From Thermococcus henrietii (GTDB lineage: Archaea > Methanobacteriota_B > Thermococci > Thermococcales > Thermococcaceae), in contig NZ_LT900021.1 of the NCBI RefSeq assembly GCF_900198835.1, positions 868,001-932,000 of the forward strand: 64,000 bases of DNA, read 5' to 3'. Both the position numbers and the translations under genes were made by a program. How positions within the stretch are numbered: the stretch's first letter is position 1; the number at the start of each line of letters is the position of its first letter. The notes under the pieces were generated by a model. That model was not told where the DNA came from and ran no database searches. It saw only the letters and a program-made list of their open reading frames with translations. Positions 49,723 to 64,000 of this stretch are shown piece by piece.

Positions 49723-51663
49723 ATGCAGATAGGCGAAGGGTTCCTCAAGGAGAGGTACCTGCCATTGGAGGCCTTCAGGGAAGAGCACAGGAAGTCCATC
49801 GAGAACATCGAGGATTTCTGGGCCGAGCAGGCGAAGGTTCTCGACTGGTTCAAGACCTGGGAGAAGGTCCTCGATGACTCAAAGGCACCCTTCTTCCGCT
49901 GGTTCGTTGGGGGTCAGCTCAACGCGAGCTACAACGCTCTGGACAGGCACGTTAAGGCAGGAAAGAGAAACCGCGCCGCGATAATCTGGGAGAGCGAGCG
50001 CGGTGAGACGAGAACGTTAACCTACTACGAGCTCTACCGCGAGGTGAACCTCTTTGCTTCAGCGCTGAAAAACCTCGGTGTCGAGAAGGGTGATAGGGTC
50101 GTCATCTACATGCCCCTCGTTCCAGAAGTGGTCATAGCAATGCTCGCCAGTGCGAGAATAGGGGCGATTCACAGCGTCGTCTTCTCCGGCTTCTCGGCGG
50201 AAGCATTAGCAACGAGAATCAACGACGCCAAAGCCAAGGTTGTCATCACCGCCGACTACCTCTACAGGCGCGGTAAGAAGCTCAACCTCAAGGGGATAGT
50301 GGACAAGGCCCTCCTCGAAACGCCGAGCGTCGAAAGCATCGTCGTCCTCAGGAGGGAAGAGAACGGCGTTAACATGGTTGAGGGCAGGGACTACGACTGG
50401 AACGAACTCCTCGACGGGGCCGAGCGCTACGTTGAGCCCGTTCCGGTCGAGAGCAACCACCCGCTGTTCATCCTCTACACGAGCGGAACCACCGGAAGGC
50501 CCAAGGGAATCGTCCACTCCACCGGGGGTTACCTCGTCTACGTGGCCAAAACGATGGAGTGGGCGTGGGGAATAACCGAGGGCGACCTCTTCTGGAACAC
50601 CGCAGATGTTGGCTGGATAACGGGCCACAGCTACCTCGTTTACGGACCCTTAACGCTCGGCCTTACGGTGATGATGTACGAAGGTGCCTTGAACTATCCA
50701 AAGCCTGACAGGCCCTGGGAGCTGGTGGAGAAGCACGGGGTAACGATATTCTACACCGCCCCAACGGCAATCAGAATGCTCATGCGCTACGGCGACGAGT
50801 GGGTGAAGAAGCACGACCTCTCAAGTTTAAGGCTCCTCGGTTCGGTCGGCGAGCCGATAAACCCGAGGGCCTGGAAGTGGTACTACGAGGTCGTTGGCGG
50901 TGGAAGGTGCCCGATAATCGACACCTGGTGGCAGACCGAGACCGGTGGCTACATGATTTATCCCTCGGCAGGAATACAGCTGCCCCCACTGAAGCCCGGC
51001 TCGGCTACTTTTCCGGGTCTCGGCGTCGATGCAGACGTTCTCAGGGCCGACGGAAGCCCGGCGGAGCCGAACGAGCGCGGCTACCTCGTGATAAAGAAGC
51101 CCTGGCCGGGAATGCTCCTCGGAATCTGGGGCGACGACGAGCGCTACATCCGGACCTACTGGCAGAGGTTCAGCAGGCCCGACGAGGGAATCTGGATTTA
51201 CTACCCTGCTGACTACGCTATGAAGGACGACGAGGGCTACTTCTGGATATTCGGCAGGGCCGACGAGGTGCTGAACGTTTCGGGCCACAGGATTGGGACG
51301 GCCGAGATAGAGCATGCTCTGGTCCTCCACCCGGCAGTTGCCGAGGCCGCTGTGATAGGAAGGCCCGACGAGATTAAGGGCGAGGTGCCCGTTGCCTTCG
51401 TAATCCTCAAGGAGAACTGCGTCCCGAGGGAGGGCCTGAAGAAGGAACTCATAGACTACGTCAGGGAAACCCTCGGCCCGATAGCGGCCCCGGCAGAGGT
51501 CTTCTTCGTCAACAAACTGCCGAAGACGAGGAGCGGGAAGATAATGCGCCGCGTTCTAAAGGCCCTCGCCAGCGGAAAGGGCCTCGGCGACCTCTCAACG
51601 CTGGAAGACGAGGCGAGCGTGGAAGAAGTGAAAAAAGCTTTGGAAGGCTTCGAGATGCGTTAG
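49723..51663 (+). CDS. Acetate-CoA ligase (AMP-forming)
   Basis: A 646-residue ANL-superfamily enzyme of the usual acetyl-CoA synthetase length. The N-terminal ACAS_N region is followed by the adenylation motif [31 protein letters not shown], the hinge [14 protein letters not shown] and the C-terminal catalytic lysine loop [14 protein letters not shown]. It forms acyl-CoA from acetate or propionate with ATP. The thermococcal norm is ADP-forming ACD, so this AMP-forming enzyme probably serves uptake of acetate or another short acid. GAGGTGG precedes ATG 49723. Confidence 0.9.
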
Positions 51664-52676
51664 CATATCCTCGGCACGGGGTCTCCGGCAGGGGGCTCCA
51701 TGAAGCGCTTTCCGCCGATTCCGGTTTCGAGGAGGACCTTCCCTCTGTATTCTTCTATTACCTCGCCGACTATCGCCGCGTCTTTTCCCCTCTTCGTCTT
51801 CCTCATCGCCTCAAGGGCTTCTTCCGCGTGCTCCCTGGCAACGACCATAACCACTTTCCCCTCGTTCGCCACGTCGTAGGGACTGATTCCCAACATCTCG
51901 CTCGCGGCCCTTACCTCGGGCTTCACGGGTATTGCATCCTCCCTGACGAGGATTCCGACGTTGCTCTTCCTCGCTATCTCGTTGAGGGCGTTGCTCAGCC
52001 CGGCCCTCGTGGGGTCCTTCATCGCGTGTATATTTTCCCAGCCGATGGCTTTTGCAACCGCTTCAACGACCTCCCACACCGGCGCGACGTCGCTCTTCAG
52101 CTCGGTTTCGAAGGCTATGCCCTCCCTGTGGCTCATCAGCGCTATTCCGTGGTCTCCTATCGTCCCGCTGACGAGGACTATGTCTCCTACCTTCGCCCCG
52201 GCGTCGCTTACCGGCTTTTCCGCGATTCCAACTCCCGCGGTAATCACGAACATCTCTATGGGCTCTTCAACGACCTTCGTGTCGCCGGTGACGATTGGAA
52301 CGGGGACTTCCTTAGACGTCTCGTCCATCGAGCGGAGAACCCTCTCAAGGACTTGCATGTCAAGGCCTTCCCCGATAATCATCGAGTTTGCTAAGGCTAA
52401 AGGCTTCGCGCCCATCACCGCCAAATCGTTGACCGTTCCGCTTATCGCGAGCCTGCCTATGTCACCGCCGGGGAAGAAGAGTGGCTTGACGGTGTGGCCG
52501 TCTATCGTAAAGACTATGTGCTCATCGCCGATGGGTATCGTCGCCCCGTCGTCGAGCTGGTCGAGTCCTATTCCCCCGGCGCTCTTGAGGGTCAGGGTCT
52601 TCAGTATAACGTCCCTCAGGAGCTCCTCCATTATTTCTCCGCCCGCACCGTGTTCGAGCTTTATCTTTTCACCCAT
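51660..52676 (-). CDS. hypE: Hydrogenase maturation protein HypE
   Basis: A 338-residue PurM-type protein that dehydrates the carbamoyl group from HypF on its C-terminal cysteine to a thiocyanate, the CN source for [NiFe] hydrogenase. The N-terminal [11 protein letters not shown] and the C-terminal VPRIC end with the acceptor Cys are present, as is the ATP-binding [12 protein letters not shown] 52676 follows GGAGGGTTG. A TTG six bases upstream is not favoured. The stop overlaps the convergent acetate-CoA ligase stop as TTAG. It is last in the operon MNT-HEPN-hypE. Confidence 0.93.
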
Positions 52677-52678
52677 CT

Positions 52679-53071
52679 TCAACCCTCCAGAAAGCCTTTC
52701 GAAGTTAGATAGCGCCTCGTAAATTCGAGGAACTCTTCGGCGCGCCGTATGTTTTCGCGCGCCTCTTCCTCGGTTATATCAACCACGAAGGAGTAATCCG
52801 CGGTCTGCCTGAGATTAAACGCGGTTCGAAGGTGTGTGAAAAACTTGTGGGAAACTTCTCCAGTCTTCACGAACTCCCTGCCGAGGAGCGCTATGACTGC
52901 GGAATGCTTCGAAACCCTTATCCCCTTCGTCAGCAAAATAGCCTCTGCGCAGTAGAACATTGTGTAGTACGCCCTTGAGAGCGCGAAGGCATAAAACCCC
53001 TTCTCCAGCAACGTCTTTGATGCCTCAAGGCTCCTCTCTGCTTTTTTCAGGATCTCCTCGTACCCGCTCAT
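52679..53071 (-). CDS. HEPN-domain protein of a HEPN/MNT pair
   Basis: A 130-residue all-helical HEPN protein: YEEILKKAERSLEASKTLLE, then the core ALSRAYYTMFYCAEAILL and FVKTGEVSHKFFTHLRTAFNLRQTADY. The HEPN partner of HEPN/MNT pairs is often an RNase toxin, though the usual Rx4-6H is not clearly formed here. It is coupled to the MNT gene by ATGA and inserted between hypF and hypE. It might be an independent toxin-antitoxin cassette. Confidence 0.8.
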   Translation of the reverse strand: MSGYEEILKKAERSLEASKTLLEKGFYAFALSRAYYTMFYCAEAILLTKGIRVSKHSAVIALLGREFVKTGEVSHKFFTHLRTAFNLRQTADYSFVVDITEEEARENIRRAEEFLEFTRRYLTSKGFLEG

Positions 53072-53394
53072 ACCTTGACACCTTCCGCGTAAACGTTCTG
53101 AATCAGCGGGTCGTGCTCCATTCTGGGATTAATCGGGTAAACGATGAGCGAGACAACTAACCCTTTCTCCAGAACGTATTCCTCTGTGATTTCACTGAGT
53201 TGGTCGTGCTCTTCGAGCGTTAGCCTTCTCCTTACCATGACAATCACGTCAACGTCGCTGTCTTCTTTAGCTTCGCCCCTCGCGTACGAGCCGAAGAGGA
53301 TAACCTCGACTAAGTCGTCGCCGAGGATTTCGATGAGCTTTTCCTTCACCTCGCGCAGGATTTCGAGGAGCTCTTCCCTCGGGATTACGGGCAT
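53068..53394 (-). CDS. Minimal nucleotidyltransferase (MNT) of a HEPN/MNT pair
   Basis: A 108-residue nucleotidyltransferase with the core VILFGSYARGEAKEDSDVDVIV, containing GSxxRGxxxxxSDxD. The family acts as antitoxin in HEPN/MNT systems, in some cases by adding AMP to the HEPN protein. It is the first gene of MNT-HEPN-hypE, so its promoter (about 53400-53436) may drive hypE too. Confidence 0.85.
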   Translation of the reverse strand: MPVIPREELLEILREVKEKLIEILGDDLVEVILFGSYARGEAKEDSDVDVIVMVRRRLTLEEHDQLSEITEEYVLEKGLVVSLIVYPINPRMEHDPLIQNVYAEGVKV

Positions 53395-53436: not shown

Positions 53437-55755
53437 TCACAGCATCAAATCCTCCCTCGTCAGGTAGCCCTCCAGGTACAGCCCGCCGAGGAAGGCCTGG
53501 CCGACGTTTATCCCGTTGTCCCCGCGCGGGACCTCCGTTGTAACGTGGAACTTAAGGCCCGACGCCTCAACAGCTTTCCTCACGGTCTTGACCATGGGCT
53601 CGTTGTAAGCGACACCACCGCTCATTACGACGTCCTTCACGCCGAACTCCTTAGCTTTCTCGATGGCAACCCCCGCAAAGACCCTGGCGAGGGCCAGGTG
53701 AACCGAGTAAGCGATGTCCGCCGGCGAGGCCTTTTCGAGGAGATCCAGCGCCTGCACGAACAGCTCCTCGACCTTTAGGAGTTCCCCCTCCACAGGCACC
53801 TCGAACTTGAGGTCGTTCTTGCCCTTCATCGCGAAGCTCTCGAGCTTCATCGCCGGCTCGCCCTCGTAGTGCCTTCTGTAGGCCACGTTGAGCAGAACCG
53901 ACAGGGCGTCGAGAACCCTTCCGGCTGATGAAGCGTAGGCGAGGTTTATCCCCTTGGCGAGCTGGTTCAGGGCGACTGAGAACTCCACCTCGCCGTACTT
54001 TAAGCTCCCTATCGCCTTCGGACAGCACTTCCTTATGACCCCTTCAAGCTCCTCAACGCTGTAGACCTTGCTCAGGATTCCCATCAGAGCCCTGAGAGGG
54101 TAGTAACTCGCCAGGTCTCCGCCGGGAAGCGGGTAGTAGTCTATATGAGCCAGCCTCTCCACGTCCTCGTAGCCGAGGTAGAGCACCTCACCGCCCCACG
54201 TGTTGCCATCGGTTCCGTAGCCCACTCCGTCAACGGCTATTCCTACAGCTGATTCGAGGTTCTTCTCGGCTAAGACACTCGCTATGTGGGCGTAGTGGTG
54301 CTGAACCTGGAGCAACTCGACGTTCAGCTCGTTCGCTAGCTCCATAGCGAGCTTTGTCGTGTTGTAGGTTGGGTGGAGGTCGGCAACGATTAAATCGAAC
54401 TCCTTAACCCTTAGGATTCTCTTGAAGTGCCCTATCGCTTCCCTCATGAACTCAAGAACCTCGACCTTTCCGGTGTTGCCGATGTACTGGCTCGGGTAGA
54501 CCTTTCCGTTTTTAGCAACTCCAAAGGCGTTCATCAGCTCCGCACCGACCGCCAAACCGCGGTAGCTGAAGGGAATCTCTATCGGGAGGGGCACAAAACC
54601 TCTGCTTCTCCTAATAACGGCCCTCCTTCCGTCAACGAAGCGAACCACGCTGTCGTCCGCGCGGTTGAGTATCTTCCTGTTGTGGAGCAGGAAGTAGTCG
54701 GCCACCCCTTTCAGCTCCTCGAAGGCCCTGTCGTTGTCCTTGACCATCGGCATTCCCGGGTAGTTCGCCGAGGTCATCACGTAGACCTTCGTCTTGCTCC
54801 AGTGGAAGAGTATGTAGTGCGTTCCCGCGTAGGGGAGCATGACGCCGATTGTATGCAAGCCGGGCGCGAGGTTCTCGGGCAGGGGGAAGGGTTCCCTCTT
54901 GCGGAGCGTCACGATGGGTCTTCTATAGCTGGTCAGCTCCTCCTCTTCAGCGTTGCTAACGTAGGCGAAGCTCTTGACCGTCTCAAGGCTATCTGCCATT
55001 ATCGCGAAGGGCTTCTGGGGCCTGAAGGTTCTCTTCCTCAGCTCGGCAACGACGTCTTCCCTTGTCGCGTCGCACGCCAGATGGATTCCGCCGATTCCCT
55101 TGATGGCCACTATGTAGCCCTTATCAATCAGCTCCGCCGCCTTCCTCAGCGGGTCGCCCGTGATTTCCTCCCCGTCGCTCGTGTAGAGACGGTAGCTCGG
55201 CCCGCAAACGGGACAGCAGACGGGTTCAGCATGGTAGCGCCTGTTCAGGGGGTCTTTATACTCGCTCTCGCAGAAGTCGCACATCGGAAATTCCTTCATC
55301 GTCGTGTTCTCGCGGTCGTAGGGCAAGTCCTCGATGATTGTGAACCTCGGCCCGCAGTTGGTGCAGACGATGAATGGGTACATGTAGCGCTTGTTCGTCG
55401 GGTCGAAAAGTTCTCTCAGGCAGTCCTCGCAGATGGCTATGTCGGGCGGAATTATCGAGTCCCCACCGCTTCCGCCCTTCGAGCTTTTCTCGATGTAGAA
55501 GCGGTCGAAGCCCTGGGGCGGGATTTCCTTCTTCTCGAGCCTGTCAACCCTCGCGAGGGGAGGTTTTTTCCGGTAGATGTCCTTGATGAATGCCTCTATG
55601 TCCTCTTCCCGGCCCTCTACGACTATCTCGACTCCGGCATCGCCGAGGTTCTTGACGTAGCCCCTCAGGTTGTGCTCGTGCGCTATGCGGTAAATGAACG
55701 GCCTGAATCCAACGGCCTGAACGATGCCCTGAACGTGAATACGGTAAGCCTTCAT
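53437..55755 (-). CDS. hypF: Carbamoyltransferase HypF
   Basis: A 772-residue protein that moves carbamoyl from carbamoyl phosphate to HypE for [NiFe]-hydrogenase CN ligands. Domains in order are acylphosphatase (HVQGIVQAVGFRPFIYRIA), two zinc fingers (CEDC...CTNC and CDFC...CPVC), a YrdC-like domain, and the Kae1-like carbamoyltransferase with HHYAHIASVLAE. Length and order match the family. ATG 55755 follows GGTGGGTGGGC. It has its own promoter with a SurR-type activator site 7-8 bases before the TATA box. Confidence 0.94.
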   Translation of the reverse strand: MKAYRIHVQGIVQAVGFRPFIYRIAHEHNLRGYVKNLGDAGVEIVVEGREEDIEAFIKDIYRKKPPLARVDRLEKKEIPPQGFDRFYIEKSSKGGSGGDSIIPPDIAICEDCLRELFDPTNKRYMYPFIVCTNCGPRFTIIEDLPYDRENTTMKEFPMCDFCESEYKDPLNRRYHAEPVCCPVCGPSYRLYTSDGEEITGDPLRKAAELIDKGYIVAIKGIGGIHLACDATREDVVAELRKRTFRPQKPFAIMADSLETVKSFAYVSNAEEEELTSYRRPIVTLRKREPFPLPENLAPGLHTIGVMLPYAGTHYILFHWSKTKVYVMTSANYPGMPMVKDNDRAFEELKGVADYFLLHNRKILNRADDSVVRFVDGRRAVIRRSRGFVPLPIEIPFSYRGLAVGAELMNAFGVAKNGKVYPSQYIGNTGKVEVLEFMREAIGHFKRILRVKEFDLIVADLHPTYNTTKLAMELANELNVELLQVQHHYAHIASVLAEKNLESAVGIAVDGVGYGTDGNTWGGEVLYLGYEDVERLAHIDYYPLPGGDLASYYPLRALMGILSKVYSVEELEGVIRKCCPKAIGSLKYGEVEFSVALNQLAKGINLAYASSAGRVLDALSVLLNVAYRRHYEGEPAMKLESFAMKGKNDLKFEVPVEGELLKVEELFVQALDLLEKASPADIAYSVHLALARVFAGVAIEKAKEFGVKDVVMSGGVAYNEPMVKTVRKAVEASGLKFHVTTEVPRGDNGINVGQAFLGGLYLEGYLTREDLML

Positions 55756-55786
55756 GCCCACCCACCGGTTTTCTTTCCACTTTTAG

Positions 55787-55848: not shown

Positions 55849-56958
55849 TTAGAACAACGCCCCGTACTTGTAGAATATCGAGCACGTTCCCTCGTAGGAC
55901 ACCATGCACGGCCCTATCGGGTGCCTCGGCGTGCAGGTCTTTCCGAAGTGCGGGCACTGTGGTGGTAGGGCCAGTCCCCTGAGGATTGCCCCGCAGAGAC
56001 AGCCCTTTTCGAGGTCGGGGAGCTTCGGGACTTCGGGGTCGTAGTAGGTCCTTATCTCGAGCTCCTTCCACTCCTTCCTCAGTTCGAGACCGCTCTTGGG
56101 CATGACCCCGAGGGCGCGCCACCTCGCGTCCTTGACCTCGAAGAACCCCTCTATGAGCTTCTGGGCAACGACGTTGCCCTCGTATTTAACGGAGCGGGTG
56201 TACTCGTTGATTATCTTCGCCTCTCCGGCCTTCACCATTCTGATGAGGTAGAGTATCGCGAGGAGCATGTCAACCGGCTCGAAACCGGCTATAACCTGCG
56301 GGACGCCGTACTTCTCGGTTATCGGCTCCCAGCCCTTGACGCCTATTATAACCGAGACGTGGCCGGGGTCAATGAGCCCGTGGAAGCGCGTTCCCTGCTT
56401 TATAAGGACCTCAACCGCCGGTGGCGTGAGCCTGTGAACCGAGTAAATCTTGAAGTTCTCCAGCTCCTCCTGGGCAACGACGTTGAGCATTCCCGCGGCC
56501 GGGGCTGTGGTCGTCTCGAAGCCCGGAGAGAAGTGAACCACCGTCCTGTCGGGGTTCTCCTTGGCTATGCGGTAGGTGTCGTAGATTGAGTACACGACCC
56601 TGATGTCGTAGCCCTCGCTCTTCAAATCGGCGAAGCTTCCCCTCGGCGTCGGAATCTTGTACATGTCGCCGAAGGTCGTCATGATTATTCTGTCGCCCTC
56701 CTCGTAGGCCTGGCGCATTATCTCCATCATCTTGACGATGTCCTCGACCGGGGTTATACAGACCGGACAGCCCGGCCCGCTGAGTATCTTGACGTTCTCC
56801 GGGAGAAGAGAGCGGATTCCGGTTCTCGTTACGGTGTCCTCGTGGGTTCCGCAGACGTGCATGAAGCGGACCTCGTCGAGGCCCTTCGCCTCCTCGTGGA
56901 TTTTCTTCACTATCTTCTGAGCGAGCTCCCTGTCCCTGAATTTATCCAGCGTCCCCAT
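55849..56958 (-). CDS. hypD: Hydrogenase maturation protein HypD
   Basis: A 369-residue Fe-S protein that, with HypC, assembles the Fe(CN)2CO unit. The CGTHE motif is near the N-terminus, GPGCPVCITP follows, and the cluster ligands are in LCGAILRGLALPPQCPHFGK and CTPRHPIGPCMVSYEG. ATG 56958 was selected, with GGGTGAT overlapping the hypC stop as Shine-Dalgarno. The gene follows hypC by one base, and the downstream hypF is under a separate promoter. Confidence 0.94.
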   Translation of the reverse strand: MGTLDKFRDRELAQKIVKKIHEEAKGLDEVRFMHVCGTHEDTVTRTGIRSLLPENVKILSGPGCPVCITPVEDIVKMMEIMRQAYEEGDRIIMTTFGDMYKIPTPRGSFADLKSEGYDIRVVYSIYDTYRIAKENPDRTVVHFSPGFETTTAPAAGMLNVVAQEELENFKIYSVHRLTPPAVEVLIKQGTRFHGLIDPGHVSVIIGVKGWEPITEKYGVPQVIAGFEPVDMLLAILYLIRMVKAGEAKIINEYTRSVKYEGNVVAQKLIEGFFEVKDARWRALGVMPKSGLELRKEWKELEIRTYYDPEVPKLPDLEKGCLCGAILRGLALPPQCPHFGKTCTPRHPIGPCMVSYEGTCSIFYKYGALF

Positions 56959-56959
56959 T

Positions 56960-57220
56960 TCAATCACCCGGGTAGTAGTAGCCGCCTATCGCGTCCTTTT
57001 CGAGCTTGAAGACCTCGTCCCAGGCGTTGAGTATTTCCTTCGCGGTCTCTTCATCAACGCGCTCGATGATGAAGCCGGTGTGAATCAGCACGTATTCACC
57101 GGGCTTGACGTCGGGCATCAAATCAATCCTGGCCTCTCTCTTGACGCCTCCGAAGTCCACCCACGCGGTTCCCTTCTCCCTGTCAACCTCCAAAACCTTC
57201 GCAACGGTCGCCAGACACAT
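56960..57220 (-). CDS. hypC: Hydrogenase maturation chaperone HypC
   Basis: An 86-residue HupF/HypC protein beginning MCLATVAKVLEV, with the conserved Cys2 needed to hold the Fe(CN)2CO unit, and PDVKPGEYVLIHTGF in the middle. ATG 57220 was chosen to expose Cys2, with GGTGAAGCTC just before it. It forms an operon with hypD and the hypC-like gene upstream. Confidence 0.93.
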   Translation of the reverse strand: MCLATVAKVLEVDREKGTAWVDFGGVKREARIDLMPDVKPGEYVLIHTGFIIERVDEETAKEILNAWDEVFKLEKDAIGGYYYPGD

Positions 57221-57264
57221 GAGCTTCACCTACCTCGGGTTGTCCTGCCCGTTATTTAGCCTTT

Positions 57265-57519
57265 CTAAAACCTCCGGTTTGAAACCGTGAAGGTCAGCTC
57301 GAGCTTTCTTGAGCGGTGGTATGAGCACCTCGCGAGGGTCTCCTCGGCCTCGCTCCTGCTGACCTTCTCAAGAACTATGCCGTAGTAAATCTTCACGTAG
57401 TCCCCGGGTTTCACGTCCTTTACGAAGTCCAGCCTCGCTTCCTTGAGCTGGCCGTCCACGTCGACTATCGCCCTTCCGTTCCTTACCTCGAGGACCCTCC
57501 CCGCGAGCATCAGGGCCAT
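57265..57519 (-). CDS. HypC-like protein lacking the N-terminal cysteine
   Basis: An 84-residue protein with the HypC beta-barrel pattern (LAGRVLEVRNGRAIVDVDGQ, KDVKPGDYVKIYYGIVLEKV). It begins MALMLAG instead of MCLA, so the Fe-binding Cys2 is replaced by Ala. A later Cys (residue about 69) and a basic tail are unusual. It may be an inactive scaffold or a partner for another complex. It is first in the operon with hypC and hypD, with GGTTGAT before ATG 57519. Confidence 0.75.
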   Translation of the reverse strand: MALMLAGRVLEVRNGRAIVDVDGQLKEARLDFVKDVKPGDYVKIYYGIVLEKVSRSEAEETLARCSYHRSRKLELTFTVSNRRF

Positions 57520-57529: not shown

Positions 57530-57544
57530 CAAAGGTGATAGAAA

Positions 57545-57557
57545 ACGATTTATAGAC
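57545..57557. promoter_or_regulatory. Shared divergent TATA region of the hypC-like operon and the DUF302 gene
   Basis: The plus strand reads ACGATTTATAGACC and the complement GGTCTATAAATCGT, a TATA box in both directions. It predicts starts at about 57577 (plus, DUF302) and 57526 (minus, hyp operon). Confidence 0.5.
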
Positions 57558-57562
57558 CTTTT

Positions 57563-57580
57563 CCTGACCAGTCAGTCAGG
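57563..57580 (+). promoter_or_regulatory. TetR operator candidate A (upstream of DUF302)
   Basis: CCTGAC-N6-GTCAGG is a perfect inverted repeat with 6-bp arms. It overlaps the predicted start near 57577. It shares TGAC-N6-GTCA and part of the centre with sites B and C around the TetR gene. Confidence 0.7.
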
Positions 57581-57588
57581 TGATTCGG

Positions 57589-57966
57589 ATGGACATGGGA
57601 CAGATGATTAACGCCGGAAAGAGCAAGTACCCCTACGAGGAGACCATAGAGAAGATTAAGGCCAAGGTTGAGGAGATTGGATGGAGCGTTGTTGCCGAGC
57701 ACGACATGGAGAAGAAAGTCGGTGTTAGGGTTTACATCATCGAGGTCTGCAACAAGGACTTCGCTAAAAAGGCCCTTGAGAAGCCCGAGAACCGCTGGAT
57801 TTCTGCCTTTATGCCGTGCCGTCTGGCGGTTGCAGACAACCCCGATGGGGTTTACGTTTACGGTATGAACATGAGTGCCTTTGCGGGAATGGCCCCGGGC
57901 GAGCTTGCCGAGATTCTCAAGAAAGTTTCGGAGGTTGACGAGGCCATTCTCAGTTCGGTTCTTTGA
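57589..57966 (+). CDS. DUF302 protein
   Basis: A 125-residue DUF302-type protein (KYPYEETIEKIKAKVEEIGW, EVCNKDFAKKALEKPENRWI, MPCRLAVADNPDGVYVYGMN). Two cysteines (in EVCNK and MPCRL) might be functional. The family is widespread in bacteria and archaea, with unknown role, often near metal or redox genes. ATG 57589 is supported by GGTGATT; ATG 57595 is possible. It is divergent from the hyp genes and has an operator-like site in its promoter. Confidence 0.8.
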   Translation: MDMGQMINAGKSKYPYEETIEKIKAKVEEIGWSVVAEHDMEKKVGVRVYIIEVCNKDFAKKALEKPENRWISAFMPCRLAVADNPDGVYVYGMNMSAFAGMAPGELAEILKKVSEVDEAILSSVL

Positions 57967-57970
57967 GTGC

Positions 57971-57985
57971 CTCTTTTTCCATCCT
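57971..57985 (+). terminator. T-rich terminator after the DUF302 gene
   Basis: CTCTTTTTCCATCC follows the DUF302 stop and lies before the TetR promoter. Confidence 0.35.
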
Positions 57986-57996
57986 CTCCGGCGGAA

Positions 57997-58007
57997 AGTT
58001 TAAATTC
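57997..58007 (+). promoter_or_regulatory. TATA box of the TetR gene
   Basis: AGTTTAAATTC centred near 58002 predicts a start near 58029, about 9 bases before operator site B. Confidence 0.55.
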
Positions 58008-58037
58008 TCCTCCTGCACATAATTGTCCATAACGTTA

Positions 58038-58055
58038 AATGACCAAATGGTCAGA
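58038..58055 (+). promoter_or_regulatory. TetR operator candidate B (in the TetR leader)
   Basis: TGACCA-AA-TGGTCA (58040-58053) is a perfect inverted repeat with a 2-bp centre and shares TGAC-N6-GTCA with sites A and C. It lies 9 or so bases after the predicted start and 13 bases before ATG 58066, as expected for autoregulation. Confidence 0.75.
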
Positions 58056-58065
58056 AGTGGTGGGC

Positions 58066-58659
58066 ATGGCTACGAAGTCTCCCGGTAAAACCCGTGAGAA
58101 ACTCGTATCGTCTGCAATGGAACTCTTCGCGAAAAAGGGTTTCGATAAGACCACGGTAGACGAGATAGTCGCCAGGGCCGGAGTTGCTAAGGGCACCTTC
58201 TACCTCTACTTCAAGAGCAAAGACGACCTCATAAAGGAGCTCGCCTTTGAGGTAATGCCCATAATGGCCATGCCCTCCCTCAACGACCCCTACATAACGG
58301 TCTCGTTCCCAACCCTGGAGAGCTACCTCCTCCAGCTTGGGGAAGAGTTCCTCGAGTTCTACTCGGAGAGCTATCGGGCGGAAATCTTCTTCCACATGCT
58401 CTCGGTCCGGGAAAGAATGAAGAGCATAGATGAAATCTACCGTCAGTCCTGCTCCGAGCTCCTGAGAGAGGGAGCGAGGAGGATTACTGCATACGTCAAG
58501 GTTGGTTTTGAGGACGCGCTTATAGCGTTTCAGGTCTTCATAGCCTCTCTCATGCACTACCTTCACGCCAAGGAGTGCATAGGTCTCTCCGGGGAGCACT
58601 ACCTGAGGAGGATTGTTAAGGTGGTGTTGAACCACCTCCGCCTCTCCGCGAGCGTGTGA
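58066..58659 (+). CDS. TetR-family transcription regulator, candidate regulator of the formate module
   Basis: A 197-residue TetR protein with the N-terminal HTH (FDKTTVDEIVARAGVAKGTFYLYFKSKDDL) and a helical ligand-binding domain containing two Cys. ATG 58066 has GTGGTGGG before it. The earlier in-frame ATG 58039 is inside the operator palindrome and is rejected. Regulators of this type release DNA on ligand binding. Three palindromes of the same form (57563, 58038 and 58744) flank it, so it probably controls itself, DUF302 and the formate dehydrogenase operon. Ligand is unknown; formate or a derivative is an obvious guess. Confidence 0.85.
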   Translation: MATKSPGKTREKLVSSAMELFAKKGFDKTTVDEIVARAGVAKGTFYLYFKSKDDLIKELAFEVMPIMAMPSLNDPYITVSFPTLESYLLQLGEEFLEFYSESYRAEIFFHMLSVRERMKSIDEIYRQSCSELLREGARRITAYVKVGFEDALIAFQVFIASLMHYLHAKECIGLSGEHYLRRIVKVVLNHLRLSASV

Positions 58660-58715
58660 TTCTGTTTAACGTTTCTTTATTGGTAAAATTCTTTTGTTTT
58701 CCATCATATCAGAAA

Positions 58716-58726
58716 ACTATTTAAGG
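58716..58726 (+). promoter_or_regulatory. TATA box of the formate dehydrogenase operon
   Basis: ACTATTTAAGG centred near 58721 predicts a start near 58747, directly inside operator site C. Confidence 0.6.
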
Positions 58727-58743
58727 TTTTGACGACGAGCCTA

Positions 58744-58761
58744 AATGACTGGTCAGTCATT
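58744..58761 (+). promoter_or_regulatory. TetR operator candidate C (formate dehydrogenase operon)
   Basis: AATGAC-N6-GTCATT is a perfect inverted repeat with 6-bp arms that covers the predicted start. It contains TGACTGGTCA, the reverse complement of TGACCAGTCA in site A. The position fits repression. Confidence 0.75.
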
Positions 58762-58776
58762 AGAAGGGTGATAGCC

Positions 58777-60834
58777 ATGGCCGAGAAACTCGTGCCCGTA
58801 GTGTGTCCCTGGTGTTCAGTCGGCTGTCGCTTTTACGCGGTCAGCGTGAACGGCTACATCAGGAAGATTGAATTCGACTACGACCACCCCACCGTCAACC
58901 GCGGAAAGCTCTGCCCGAAGGGCGTTGCCTCCTACCAGTTCATCAACAGCCCCAAGAGACTTAAGAAGCCCCTCAAGCGCGTTGGTGAGAAGGGAGAAGG
59001 AAAGTTCGAGGAGATAAACTGGAGCGAAGCTTACAAGATAATCGCCGAGAAGATTAAGGAAATCAAGGAAACCTACGGTCCCGAGGCTATAGCATTCCTC
59101 GCTAGCGAGAAGATAACCTTCGAGGAGAACTACCTCGTCCACAAGCTGTCGAAGGCGATAGGGACCAACCACCTCGACTTCCCGGGAAGGTACTGCCAGT
59201 ACTCCAACAGCCCCGCGAGAACGGCTGTCTTCGGTAGCTCGGCCGCGACCAATCCATTCGAGGACGTTGCCAAAGCCGAGTTTATTCTGATTTGGGGCCA
59301 CAACCCCGCTGAGACGGCACCTGTTTTCTTCGGTCAGTACATTGAGAAGGCCGTCCTCGACAACGGCGCCGAGATGGTCGTCATAGACCCGCGCGCGACG
59401 AGGGGCCACAAGTACGCGAGCATGCACCTCAAGCCTTACCCTGGAACCGACCTCGCGATAGCCCTGGCCATGCTCAACGTCGTCATAAGCGAGGAGCTCT
59501 ACGACAAGGAGTTCGTCAACGAGAGGACGACCGGCTTCGAGGAGCTCAAGGAGGCCGTCAAGGAGTACACACCGGAGTGGGCTGAGAAGATAAGCGGCGT
59601 TCCCGCAGAGGACATAAGGAAGGTTGCGAGGCTCTTCGCCACCAAGAGAACTGCCCTCTTCGTCAACGAGGGCATGAACCAGCACGTCAACGGTTTTGAG
59701 ATGGCGGTGGCCCTCGCTGACCTCGTGGCCATCACCGGCAACATAGGCAAAGAGGGCGTCTGGAGCGGTGTCTTCCCAGGTGCCCAGTGCGGGTTCTGTG
59801 CCGCAATGACCGGCATCGCTCCGAACAAGCTCCCGACCGGCAAGCTCGTCACCGACGAGGCCGCGAGGGCTGAAGTCGAGAGGCTCTGGGGCTTCAATAT
59901 ACCCGACTGGGTCGGCCTCGACTTAACCAACATGATACGCGAGATGGGCAACAAGATTAGGATGATGTACATCGTCGGCGGCAACATCGCCAAGTCGGCC
60001 CCGAACAGCAAGTGGGTCAGGGAACAACTCAAGAAGCTCGACTTCCTGGTTGTGCAGGACATATTCCTCACCGAGACGGCTAAATACGCTGACATAGTTC
60101 TCCCTGCCGCGGCCTGGTTTGAGAAGACTGGAACGGCAATAAGCGCCGAGAGAAGGGTCCAGAGGAGCTACAAGGCTGCGAACCCGCCCGGAGAGGCTAA
60201 GCCCGACTGGCTTATCCTAGTTGAGCTCGCCAAGGAGCTCGGCCTCGGCGAGTACTTCAAGTACGAGCACCCGGATGAGATTCTCAGGGAGATAAACAGC
60301 GTTATTCCGCTCTTCAAGGGAGCAACTCCGGAATATCTCGCGGAGCACCCCGAGGGATGCTTCTTCCCGTGCATCGAGCCCGGTGAGGGAACGAAGGTCC
60401 TCTTCAAGAAGGGCTTCAAGACGAGTGATGGAAAGGCCCACCTCCAGCCCGTTGGCTGGCGTGAGCCGCCGGAGAAGCCCGACGAGGAGTATCCGCTCTG
60501 GCTCACCAACTTCAGGTTCGTCGGCCACTGGCACACGGGAACCATGTCCTTCGAGAGTCCGAGCCTTGAGAAGCGCTGGCCAGAGGAGTACGTCATGATT
60601 AACCCGAAGGACGCCGAGAAGTACGGCATAAGGAACGGGGACCTCGTCAAGGTCGAGACCAGGCGCGGAAGCGTTCTCGTCAGGGCAGAGGTTACTGACC
60701 ACGTCAGGGAGGGCGTTATCGCGATGCCGAACCACTGGAACATCAACGTTCTGACCCTTGAGACCATCCACGAGAAGACCAAGATGGCCGAGCTCAAGGC
60801 CGTCGCGGCCAGGATTAGGAAGGTGGAGGAGTGA
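58777..60834 (+). CDS. fdhA: Formate dehydrogenase catalytic subunit (molybdopterin/tungstopterin)
   Basis: A 685-residue FdhF-type oxidoreductase that takes electrons from formate. The N-terminal [4Fe-4S] ligands are Cys10, Cys13, Cys17 and Cys46. The probable metal ligand is Cys140 in PGRYCQYSNS, so the enzyme uses Cys, not selenocysteine. The bis-MGD domains follow, including the C-terminal GDLVKVETRRGSVLVRA region. ATG 58777 follows GGGTGATAGCC. Downstream genes for an Fe-S protein and antiporter-type subunits fit a formate hydrogenlyase. Tungsten is likely the metal in Thermococcales but is not visible in sequence. Confidence 0.92.
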   Translation: MAEKLVPVVCPWCSVGCRFYAVSVNGYIRKIEFDYDHPTVNRGKLCPKGVASYQFINSPKRLKKPLKRVGEKGEGKFEEINWSEAYKIIAEKIKEIKETYGPEAIAFLASEKITFEENYLVHKLSKAIGTNHLDFPGRYCQYSNSPARTAVFGSSAATNPFEDVAKAEFILIWGHNPAETAPVFFGQYIEKAVLDNGAEMVVIDPRATRGHKYASMHLKPYPGTDLAIALAMLNVVISEELYDKEFVNERTTGFEELKEAVKEYTPEWAEKISGVPAEDIRKVARLFATKRTALFVNEGMNQHVNGFEMAVALADLVAITGNIGKEGVWSGVFPGAQCGFCAAMTGIAPNKLPTGKLVTDEAARAEVERLWGFNIPDWVGLDLTNMIREMGNKIRMMYIVGGNIAKSAPNSKWVREQLKKLDFLVVQDIFLTETAKYADIVLPAAAWFEKTGTAISAERRVQRSYKAANPPGEAKPDWLILVELAKELGLGEYFKYEHPDEILREINSVIPLFKGATPEYLAEHPEGCFFPCIEPGEGTKVLFKKGFKTSDGKAHLQPVGWREPPEKPDEEYPLWLTNFRFVGHWHTGTMSFESPSLEKRWPEEYVMINPKDAEKYGIRNGDLVKVETRRGSVLVRAEVTDHVREGVIAMPNHWNINVLTLETIHEKTKMAELKAVAARIRKVEE

Positions 60835-60844
60835 GGTGGTTGGA

Positions 60845-61342
60845 ATGAGCAAGAAGATTTTCCTCGACTATAAGCGCTGTATCGGCTGTAAGGCCTGTGA
60901 AGTGGCCTGTGAAATGACTCACGGCGAGGCAAGGATACGGGTCTTCGAGTTCCCCGACCTCTTCACCGTTCCCTTCAACTGCCGCCACTGTGAAAAGGCT
61001 CCATGCGAAAACGTCTGTCCGACTGGGGCGCTCTTCAGGGACGAGGACGGCGCGGTTGCCTTTGACCCGCTCAAGTGTATCGGTTGTCTCATGTGTGCCG
61101 TTGCCTGTCCATTTGGAATTCCAAAGCTCGACGAGGAGAACAAGATTATGGATAAGTGCGACCTCTGTTCCGACAGAAGAGCGGAAGGAAAGCTTCCAGC
61201 GTGTGTCTCGGCCTGTCCAACGGAGGCCCTGCTCTACGGTGACATGAACGAGGTGCTTTGGAACAGGGAAGGAAAGATAGTGGCCAACTTGAAGAGCTCC
61301 GCCGAGAAGGGGGAGGGAGAAAAGGCCTACATCGTCCTCTGA
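60845..61342 (+). CDS. fdhB: Four-cluster ferredoxin-type subunit of formate dehydrogenase
   Basis: A 165-residue iron-sulfur protein of the HycB/FdhB/DMSO-reductase-beta type, with Cys motifs CIGCKACEVAC, CRHCEKAPCENVCP, CIGCLMCAVACP and CDLCSDRR...CVSACP for four [4Fe-4S] clusters. It should wire electrons from FdhA to the hydrogenase module. ATG 60845 follows GGAGTGAGGTGG and lies 10 bases after fdhA. Confidence 0.92.
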   Translation: MSKKIFLDYKRCIGCKACEVACEMTHGEARIRVFEFPDLFTVPFNCRHCEKAPCENVCPTGALFRDEDGAVAFDPLKCIGCLMCAVACPFGIPKLDEENKIMDKCDLCSDRRAEGKLPACVSACPTEALLYGDMNEVLWNREGKIVANLKSSAEKGEGEKAYIVL

Positions 61343-61378: not shown

Positions 61379-61392
61379 GAGAGGTGATGGGA

Positions 61393-62835
61393 GTGTACTA
61401 TGTTCCGTTCCTGGTCTCAATGTTCCTCCCCTTTGTGCTACTCGTGGTTTGGAAGAGCGAGAGCAGGGGTACAGGGGTCTTTGCGGCAGTAATTTTTGGA
61501 ATCTCTCTGGCGTTCAACGCCTGGGGAGCCTACCAGTATCTGACGAACGACTTAGGCAAGACGCTTCACGTTGCTTACATAACCTACGGAAACGCTGGGG
61601 AAATATTTGGTATTATTGTCGATGAGGTCTCGGTACTGATGGGCCTCGTGACCATGGTAGTGGCCTTCCTTGTAAGCTTGTATGCCATTGACTACATGAG
61701 CGAAAAGCACTCAGCAAATCCCTTTAAGGAGGGTAAAGGGAAATTCTTCGCCCTTCTTGGAGTTCTCGTTGCTTCTACGATGGTCTTCATCTACGGAACA
61801 AATCTCATCCAGTTCATAGTGTTCCTTGAGATAATCGCCCTTGCCCTTGACGACCTGATAAATACCTACGGAAACGCATCGCTCGACTCCCTCAAAGCAT
61901 ACCTCGTCTTGAACCTAGCGGTAGTCCTAATGATAATATCTTTCTTTGTACTCGGAAGCGGACAGGCGCTCTACAAGCTCGGTTCGGTAAGTGAATCCGC
62001 CAAACACACCGCCTTAGTGCTCATAGCCTTTGCGGCATTTGCAATGAGCTCACAGTTCTTCTTTTACTCCTGGCTTCCGAAGTCCACGAAGGGTCCAGTC
62101 CCAGTCTCGGCGTTAATCCACAGCGTTTCAGTCGTCTCACTTGGAATACTCCTCATGCTTAGGTTCATACAGTTTGGCGGGAAGTACGAGGGGCTGTTCT
62201 ACATACTGGCAATTTTCTCAGTCTTCATGGTCGTTCTGATGATGTTTTACTACCCGATTCAGAGTGATCTCAAGACCCTCATAGCTTACTCGACGATAGG
62301 ACAGGCGGCCATTGGCTTCATGACCTTGGCTTACGCTGCTTACGGTAGTTCCATAGGACTTCAAGTGGCGACGTATCAGGTCATCAACCATGCCTTCATC
62401 AAGTCGCTGGCGTTTCTCACGGCGGGAGCAATGGGATACTCCCTTGGAACAACCAACATGGCAAGGATAAAAGGCTTCGCAAAAAGCCTGCCTGCAGTAA
62501 GCGTTAGCTGGTTCTTGGCGATGTTCGGTCTGGCGGGGGTTCTGCCTATGGGAATGTTCTTCAGTAAGGCATACGAGACAATGACGAACGCTCACGCCCC
62601 GGGTGTGTTCTCTTGGCTCCTGCCAGTGCTGATACTCTTCGAGGCGGCGATACTCCTCGTCGTTGTGATGGTGTGGTTTAGGAGAATATTCTTTGGCTCA
62701 GAGATTTCACCGCAGCCCTCCGTTAGTCCAACAAAGCTCATGTACTTCGCAATGCTTGTGCTGATAATAGCCGGCACCGTTTCGCCGTGGGTGACCCTGA
62801 GTATCGTCAGCAAAATAGGATTCATAGCGGGGTGA
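61393..62835 (+). CDS. Proton/sodium-conducting membrane subunit (MrpD/NuoN-like) of the formate hydrogenlyase module
   Basis: A 480-residue, about 14-helix protein of the Mrp/NuoL-M-N family. Conserved charge positions are visible: Glu in QFIVFLEIIALALDD, Lys in the SWLPKSTKGPVPVSALIHS loop and a second Lys in VINHAFIKSLAFLTAGA. It moves ions as electrons pass to protons. GTG 61393 was chosen because GAGGTGAT is 4 bases upstream, although ATG 61387 is possible. It is preceded by a SurR-type motif. Confidence 0.85.
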   Translation: MYYVPFLVSMFLPFVLLVVWKSESRGTGVFAAVIFGISLAFNAWGAYQYLTNDLGKTLHVAYITYGNAGEIFGIIVDEVSVLMGLVTMVVAFLVSLYAIDYMSEKHSANPFKEGKGKFFALLGVLVASTMVFIYGTNLIQFIVFLEIIALALDDLINTYGNASLDSLKAYLVLNLAVVLMIISFFVLGSGQALYKLGSVSESAKHTALVLIAFAAFAMSSQFFFYSWLPKSTKGPVPVSALIHSVSVVSLGILLMLRFIQFGGKYEGLFYILAIFSVFMVVLMMFYYPIQSDLKTLIAYSTIGQAAIGFMTLAYAAYGSSIGLQVATYQVINHAFIKSLAFLTAGAMGYSLGTTNMARIKGFAKSLPAVSVSWFLAMFGLAGVLPMGMFFSKAYETMTNAHAPGVFSWLLPVLILFEAAILLVVVMVWFRRIFFGSEISPQPSVSPTKLMYFAMLVLIIAGTVSPWVTLSIVSKIGFIAG

Positions 62836-62839
62836 TATT

Positions 62840-64000
62840 ATGCTGCCGTTGGAATACGCGATAATTGCCTTTATCATTGGTGCCTTTGCGGGTATCCTTA
62901 GGGATTATAGAGCCACCACTAAGGCCTCAAGCTTCATGGCGTTCCTCGGAGCACTGGCCCTGCTCTACCAAGTGTACTACGTCTACACCAACGGCCCGGT
63001 CAGCGGCAGTGTCTTCGGCCTTCCCGTTCACATAGACGGACTCTCCGCGATATTCCTGTTCATAGTGGGCATAGTGAGCCTTGGCTCGGCAATATTCGCA
63101 ATAGGCTACATGGATCACCATGAGAAGAGGGGCAAGGGCTGGGTCTATGCGGTGGCCTACAACACTTTCATAGGCTCGATGGCCCTCGTCGTTACGGTCA
63201 GCAACCTCGAGTGGTTCGTGTTTTCCTGGGAGCTCATGACCCTCAGCTCGTTCGTGCTGATATTCTGGAAGGAGGAGAAGAAGGACCTCGACGCGAGCTT
63301 CAAGTACTACCTGACCATGCACTTCTTTGACACCATCCCGCTGTTCCTGCTCCTCGGTCTCGCGAGCGTCCTAACTGGCAGCATTCACAACCTCAGTTAT
63401 TCGGCGATTCAGCAGGCCCTCGCAACGGCCTCACCCCTTCAGAGGGGACTGTTCTACGGCCTGTTCCTCATCGTGTTCATGACTAAAGCCGGTATAGTCC
63501 CGCTCCACTACTGGCTTCCAGACGCTCACCCTGCCGCTCCAAGCAACGTCTCAGCGCTCCTCAGTGGTATAATGATAAAGACCGCGGTCTACGGGCTTCT
63601 CCGCTTTGACTGGGGCATGGCCGGCTACAACACACTCCTCGGCTACATCGTTGCCGGACTTGGAATAGCAACCCTTACAGTGGGAACTCTCTACGCCCTC
63701 AGGGAAACGAACTCCAAGAGGCTATTGGCCTACCACAGCGTAGGTCAGATGGGGTACATCTGGCTCGGCATTGGAATAGGCATGGTTCTCATACCTCATG
63801 GGGGGACCCTCGCCGCTATCGGTGCCCTTGGAATGTTCGCGGGCCTCTTCCACGCGATAAACCACGCAATCTTCAAGGGTGCCCTCTTCCTTGAGGCAGG
63901 TGCGGTCGAGTACGCAACTGGAACCGTTGAGCTGAACGAGCTGGGTGGCCTTGGACCGCTCATGAAGAGCACTGCCCTTGCGACGTTCTTCGCTTCGATG
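62840..64000 (+). CDS. Hydrogenase-4 component B/NuoL-like antiporter subunit (truncated by the window end)
   Basis: The frame opens at ATG 62840 (GGTGAT upstream) and stays open to base 64000, giving at least 387 residues. The Glu in FSWELMTLSSFVL, the HYWLPDAHPAAPSNVSALLSG loop and Lys in HAIFKGALFLEAGA are signatures of the HyfB/MbhH-like antiporter subunits. It starts five bases after the preceding gene and is the fourth gene of the formate operon. Confidence 0.88.
   Translation, partial: MLPLEYAIIAFIIGAFAGILRDYRATTKASSFMAFLGALALLYQVYYVYTNGPVSGSVFGLPVHIDGLSAIFLFIVGIVSLGSAIFAIGYMDHHEKRGKGWVYAVAYNTFIGSMALVVTVSNLEWFVFSWELMTLSSFVLIFWKEEKKDLDASFKYYLTMHFFDTIPLFLLLGLASVLTGSIHNLSYSAIQQALATASPLQRGLFYGLFLIVFMTKAGIVPLHYWLPDAHPAAPSNVSALLSGIMIKTAVYGLLRFDWGMAGYNTLLGYIVAGLGIATLTVGTLYALRETNSKRLLAYHSVGQMGYIWLGIGIGMVLIPHGGTLAAIGALGMFAGLFHAINHAIFKGALFLEAGAVEYATGTVELNELGGLGPLMKSTALATFFASM

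Follow-up and report, generated by a model that had tools for sequence, protein, structure and literature searches.

The question raised by this locus is which sites and which genes a TetR/AcrR-family regulator may control from its place beside a formate hydrogenlyase operon. According to a 2023 study (PMC10025317), all but one of the Group 4 fhl operons are preceded, at ~350 nt, by a gene of this family, whose mechanism was called unknown, and the regulation of the Group 2-5 formate operons of Thermococcales was described there as unknown too. The window analysed here, that is, the whole stretch of 64,000 nucleotides of Thermococcus henrietii DNA from a genome of 2,155,760 bases (G000), carries the same gene and operon: the operon content and the TetR gene directly upstream identify it as the Group 4 formate hydrogenlyase described for Thermococci in that text, and it corresponds to Mhy1 of T. 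gammatolerans, near which hyp genes are also found (PMC2718504). A sequence-only reading of the window had proposed that three TGAC-N6-GTCA palindromes of uniform geometry, at the predicted starts of a DUF302 gene, of tetR and of an fdh operon, define the regulon of an autoregulated repressor of formate use. The analysis favours, with a probability of roughly 0.86, a dedicated local regulator of formate hydrogenlyase, which as a dimer would bind the refined consensus TGACYRNNYRGTCA, repress the operon and its own gene, probably co-regulate the hyp genes and leave the DNA upon binding of an effector.

Table 1. Genes, core promoter elements and candidate operators of the locus (window coordinates).
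Feature	Position	Strand	Basis or context
hypE	51660-52682	-	TIGR02124
hypF	53437-55761	-	TIGR00143
hypD	55849-56967	-	TIGR00075
hypC1, canonical HypC	56960-57229	-	TIGR00074
hypC2, HypC-family paralogue without N-terminal Cys	57265-57519	-	PF01455
BRE + TATA box (ATTTATAG, 57548-57555)	57540-57555		probably common to DUF302 (+) and hypC2 (-, read as CTATAAAT); conserved in orthologues
candidate operator 1, TGACCAGTCAGTCA (18-bp dyad CCTGACCAGTCAGTCAGG, 57563-57580)	57565-57578		divergent promoter DUF302 (+) / hypC2 (-)
DUF302 protein, 125 aa	57589-57966	+	PF03625
tetR TATA box, TTTAAATT	57999-58006	+	sequence
candidate operator 2, TGACCAAATGGTCA	58040-58053		tetR leader
tetR, TetR/AcrR-family regulator, 197 aa	58066-58659	+	PF00440
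fdhA operon BRE + TATA box (TATTTAAG, 58718-58725)	58710-58725	+	sequence
candidate operator 3, TGACTGGTCAGTCA (18-bp dyad AATGACTGGTCAGTCATT, 58744-58761)	58746-58759		predicted transcription start, formate hydrogenlyase operon
fdhA, formate dehydrogenase catalytic subunit (Group 4 type)	58777-60834	+	TIGR01591 above cut-off
fdhB-like 4Fe-4S protein	60845-61342	+	sequence/profile
antiporter-like membrane subunits of formate hydrogenlyase	61384-64000	+	operon runs past window

The three palindromes are indeed present, each of them at a core promoter (Table 1). The window holds four copies of TGAC-N6-GTCA against 0.73 expected, and none of 100 shuffles reached four; the additional copy, at 53238, was set aside as a chance match because it lies within an ORF and misfits the refined consensus. 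The latter, obtained from the comparison of orthologous loci, is expected 0.0002 times in the three intergenic regions pooled, as calculated from base composition and for a consensus partly built from these same sites. Beyond the shared TGAC-N6-GTCA, two classes can be told apart: the sites at fdhA and between DUF302 and hypC2 have the strong core TGACYRGTCAGTCA in common, whereas the tetR site is a plain dyad, TGACYR-NN-YRGTCA. Across the orthologous sites, conservation within the dyad extends to its inner Y/R positions (0.7-2.0 bits), most flanking columns staying below 0.7 bits. The loose motif occurs 40 times in the whole genome (13 times for the control), and matches this common are weak evidence on their own. 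In the genome-wide search that the sequence-only reading had proposed, the refined TGACYRNNYRGTCA, by contrast, was found only four times in 2.16 Mb, at the three window sites and at genome position 149729, ahead of cooF.

The location of the sites suggests how they may act. Ribosome-binding sites and the ends of orthologues point to start codons at ATG 57589 (DUF302), ATG 58066 (tetR) and ATG 58777 (fdhA), so that the dyads, which had been placed at predicted gene starts, fall on transcription starts or in leaders and not on codons. All three sites lie downstream of a TATA box and start 10-34 bp after it ends. In Thermococcus onnurineus, TATA boxes lie 20-30 nt ahead of the transcription start (PMC5316973). 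With this spacing, transcription would start near 57578 for DUF302, 58030 for tetR and 58748 for fdhA, and the dyads would span about -13 to +1, +11 to +24 and -2 to +12, respectively. A dimer bound on or just past the start of tetR and fdhA, and on that of DUF302, should block either the recruitment or the escape of RNA polymerase. Some TetR proteins, such as FasR, activate, and the same protein could instead be an activator or a dual regulator, a rather unlikely alternative for sites at or after the predicted starts of fdhA, tetR and DUF302, which is the usual place of archaeal repressor action. Repression would thus be the preferred mode, with activation possible as well at hypC2, for which the site is upstream of the BRE. 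In the fdhA promoters of three genomes (G048, G059 and G067), the asymmetric core TGACYRGTCAGTCA was found in reverse orientation, as expected if a symmetric dimer is indifferent to it. The dyads, being inverted repeats within or close to 5′ leaders, could also be RNA hairpins or terminator-like elements, but this seems hardly credible for sites that often start at or ahead of the predicted transcript start, carry an asymmetric core in either orientation across genomes without a T-run after it, and track the occurrence of a DNA-binding protein.

This last point speaks for the TetR protein itself as the binder of the sites. Among 94 Thermococcaceae genomes, TGACYRGTCAGTCA was found in 39, which are exactly the 39 with an orthologue of the regulator (E below 1e-30), and in none of the 55 others. 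Fisher's test gives p 2e-27 when genomes are counted as independent and phylogeny is left uncorrected, a value that overstates the case because the genomes share ancestry and the gene and its sites are inherited together. Similarly, the strict consensus TGACYRNNYRGTCA occurs at 56 sites in 17 genomes with TetR, against 18 for a reversed control, and at 9 against 8 in 17 genomes without it. Adjacency is not the mere reason for the conservation of the sites, as in one genome (G004) ~15 kb separates tetR from fdhA, the two being on opposite strands, with sites kept at both promoters. Moreover, the protein of the window is the sole TetR_N protein of its genome, and the dyads resemble usual TetR operators in length and form. 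A different transcription factor with tetR as a bystander would have in its favour the similar dyads of an unrelated gene in two genomes without TetR, as well as a site ahead of cooF in a further genome lacking the orthologue (G030); set against the perfect match of presence and absence in 94 genomes and a site in most tetR promoters, this explanation is very improbable, and one TetR protein as the binder of the three sites, as originally proposed, is the supported reading.

The unrelated gene just mentioned was found when 15 stretches with other genomic sites of the consensus were examined. Ten lie within unrelated ORFs and one between unrelated genes, without recurrence, and these were discarded as chance matches; the remaining four, all at one gene for a secreted protein, were not counted in the regulon. 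At this gene, TGACCA-like dyads stand right at the start of the orthologues of four genomes (L170:1983, L171:2006, L175:2024 and L180:2038), two of which lack TetR. As they are present both with and without the regulator, they were excluded, and probably reflect another regulator or a feature of the translation start; the looser consensus is thus not exclusive to TetR.

The protein has the features of a regulator of this family, with a match to PF00440 (TetR_N) of 70.7 bits (cut-off 24) and an AlphaFold model (mean pLDDT 92.5) of the all-helical fold that includes a C-terminal ligand/dimer domain, whose best PDB matches are TetR regulators; no hint of a ligand was taken from these matches, which are broad and unspecific. 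The recognition helix contains a segment, AKGTFY, that does not vary among 30 aligned orthologues, in keeping with a constant operator. In the effector domain, Cys129 is also invariant in these 30 sequences, down to 32% identity, and could possibly be a redox or metal switch. Autoregulation, another of the initial proposals, is predicted from the site in the tetR promoter; of the 38 loci examined, 32 have a TGAC-N6-GTCA no more than 70 bp from tetR. It would not be universal, since no site was found at tetR itself in three Pyrococcus-like loci (L031-L033).

In nearly all orthologous loci, whose TetR proteins are from 33 to 100% identical, the site of the fdhA promoter keeps its place 30-35 bp ahead of the ATG. 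An FdhA at 59% identity or above shares the genome distribution of TetR apart from two mismatches, one with the fdhA contig cut ahead of the promoter (G061) and one with a contig that ends within fdhA (G051). Control of the operon by TetR is very likely. The sequence-only reading had named it an fdh operon; its content is that of a complete formate hydrogenlyase. The fdhA gene is followed by those for the Fe-S protein, two antiporter-like subunits and subunits resembling NuoH, NuoC/D and NuoB; a short ORF closes the operon, which ends beyond the window at about genome position 937343. No formate transporter was seen in the operon from fdhA to the NuoB-like subunit.

The site next to DUF302 calls for a wider reading. 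It covers the predicted start of this gene, which TetR would control as first suggested, but the same site is shared with a divergent hypC-like gene, hypC2, 46 bp away and absent from the sequence-only reading, and forms the upstream flank of the BRE/TATA element that would serve hypC2, hypC1, hypD and hypF, genes that follow each other in this order, with hypE further along. The TATA box at 57548-57555 has purine-rich flanks on either side when read on the respective strands, and can also serve hypC2 leftward (start codon at 57519), an arrangement through which hydrogenase maturation would probably be co-regulated. HypC2 matches PF01455 (53.5 bits) and stays below the cut-off of TIGR00074 (46.5 versus 48); it begins MALMLAGR and lacks the N-terminal Cys (MC motif) of the HypC/HupF family. 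It also shows a conserved CSY near the C-terminus and coexists with a canonical HypC. At 63% identity or more it is found in exactly 26 genomes, all of them with TetR, the HypC matches of the other genomes being more distant.

DUF302 of this type is present in 20 of the 94 genomes, which are 20 of the 26 with hypC2, and always beside this tetR. Across orthologues, the site lies ~24 bp ahead of the DUF302 start and mostly 46 bp ahead of that of hypC2, and is kept in 25 of the 26 genomes when a transition is allowed at either outermost base. A site serving DUF302 alone, with the hyp genes uncontrolled, would agree with its place over the predicted DUF302 start and with the constant company of DUF302 and tetR. 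However, six TetR-containing genomes carry hypC2 without an adjacent DUF302 and all keep the site 46-52 bp from hypC2, four in strict form (G018, G020, G021 and G046) and two with a single outer mismatch (G051 and G064). Since the site persists where DUF302 is missing, and hypC2 is itself restricted to the 26 genomes with TetR, exclusive control of DUF302 is improbable. The more conserved neighbour of the site is hypC2, not DUF302, and a shared control of hydrogenase maturation and of the hydrogen-evolving enzyme makes sense. In one of these genomes (G020), DUF302 is an internal-deletion remnant (L016:1221-1513, with AAEIDEEIISAVL ahead of the stop), the operator being intact. Between hypF and hypE (52679-53394, minus strand), two small genes resemble, from their sequence only, a nucleotidyltransferase/HEPN toxin-antitoxin pair.

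The DUF302 protein itself matches PF03625 with 30 bits (cut-off 23), has the fold of 1q9u (TM 0.8) and contains two invariant cysteines. A link of the whole DUF302 family to formate metabolism, as had been suggested, fails, because bacterial relatives (23-35% identity) lie in other contexts, among cytochrome oxidase, sugar and other genes; in 11 of their neighbourhoods, translated ORFs inspected by eye without profile search, no formate or hydrogenase neighbours were recognised. The link would hold for this subfamily only.

A further question is the nature of the signal. The site positions are typical of repression, but formate induction, implied by the idea of a repressor of formate use, is contradicted by published expression data of two relatives. 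According to PMC10025317, the Group 4 fhl operon of T. paralvinellae is lower on formate than on maltose or peptides. The Hyg4-I cluster of T. onnurineus is called a homologue of Mhy1 in PMC2718504, and was taken here, from its gene numbers and its place in the genome, as the TetR-linked cluster; its expression is lower on formate or CO, compared with rich medium. As such operons are lower on formate in two species, formate is unlikely to be the effector that would free TetR from DNA. The fdh-mhy operon of T. litoralis, possibly one that carries this TetR, is highest on peptides. A signal from peptide metabolism or redox state seems a better guess.

Some known regulators resemble this system in part. 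RutR of Escherichia coli combines a palindromic operator of ~16 bp with autoregulation. The core of the RutR consensus, TTGACCANNTGGTCAA, agrees with the tetR site of the window. Unlike the present protein, RutR acts in pyrimidine metabolism; only the TetR_N part matches, and the RutR equivalog profile TIGR03613 scores 29.1 bits, far below its cut-off of 368. FadR-Sa of Sulfolobus acidocaldarius is likewise an archaeal TetR-family repressor; it regulates its own locus and recognises a 16-bp semi-palindrome at few genomic sites (PMC6449355), but it controls fatty-acid genes, its kinship with the TetR protein being assessed by TetR-fold and profile matches. SurR also regulates hydrogen and formate operons of Thermococcales, but differs both as a protein and in its site (GTTn3AAC), which PMC10025317 reports to be missing from Group 2-4 promoters. 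EnfR (TON_1525) of the related T. onnurineus represses a cluster for CO dehydrogenase and hydrogen, but it has a novel fold, and its published site, 36 bp and AT-rich, is unlike the dyads, which led to its rejection as their binder.

The regulator gene was already noted in 2023. The main text of that study (PMC10025317) contains no operators, hyp/DUF302 link, autoregulation or co-occurrence test, and no description of the operators, the autoregulation, the hypC2/DUF302 promoter or a CO-dehydrogenase link was found in the main texts of the open-licence PMC literature; within this literature the operators and the regulon appear to be new. With a concrete operator, a small and closed set of targets and one candidate protein, the proposal is directly testable in genetically tractable hyperthermophiles used for hydrogen production, and the regulon places two uncharacterised proteins, the HypC paralogue without the Cys and the DUF302 subfamily, in a functional context.

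A last question concerns the fourth dyad of the genome (L003:1501, L055:1366), which lies ~135 bp before cooF, a gene in one operon with cooS, and ~100 bp upstream of the TATA box of cooF. This dyad occupies the same alignment place in 8 of the 10 TetR-containing genomes with this cooF, versus 3 of the 8 with no identified TetR; of these three, one is a fragmented genome whose Group 4 fdhA sits on a contig that is cut, and another carries an imperfect site. The association gives p 0.14, or 0.013 if the cut genome is reassigned and the strict consensus applied, a choice made post hoc. The site in G030, a complete genome without the orthologue, may be used by another binder or be a relic. Because the test of presence and absence is weak, the CO-dehydrogenase operon is kept as a suggestive further target of TetR, proposed from the site. 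That one TetR protein coordinates a dedicated C1/hydrogen module of formate hydrogenlyase, the Cys-less HypC with the hyp genes, DUF302 and, where present, CO dehydrogenase is a tentative and somewhat doubtful extension, under which HypC2 and DUF302 would be accessory factors specific to formate hydrogenlyase. The regulon hints at a link between the control of formate hydrogenlyase and that of CO dehydrogenase. The cooF dyad is adjoined by a sequence block, ttcacacttttggataat, which is conserved even in genomes without the dyad.
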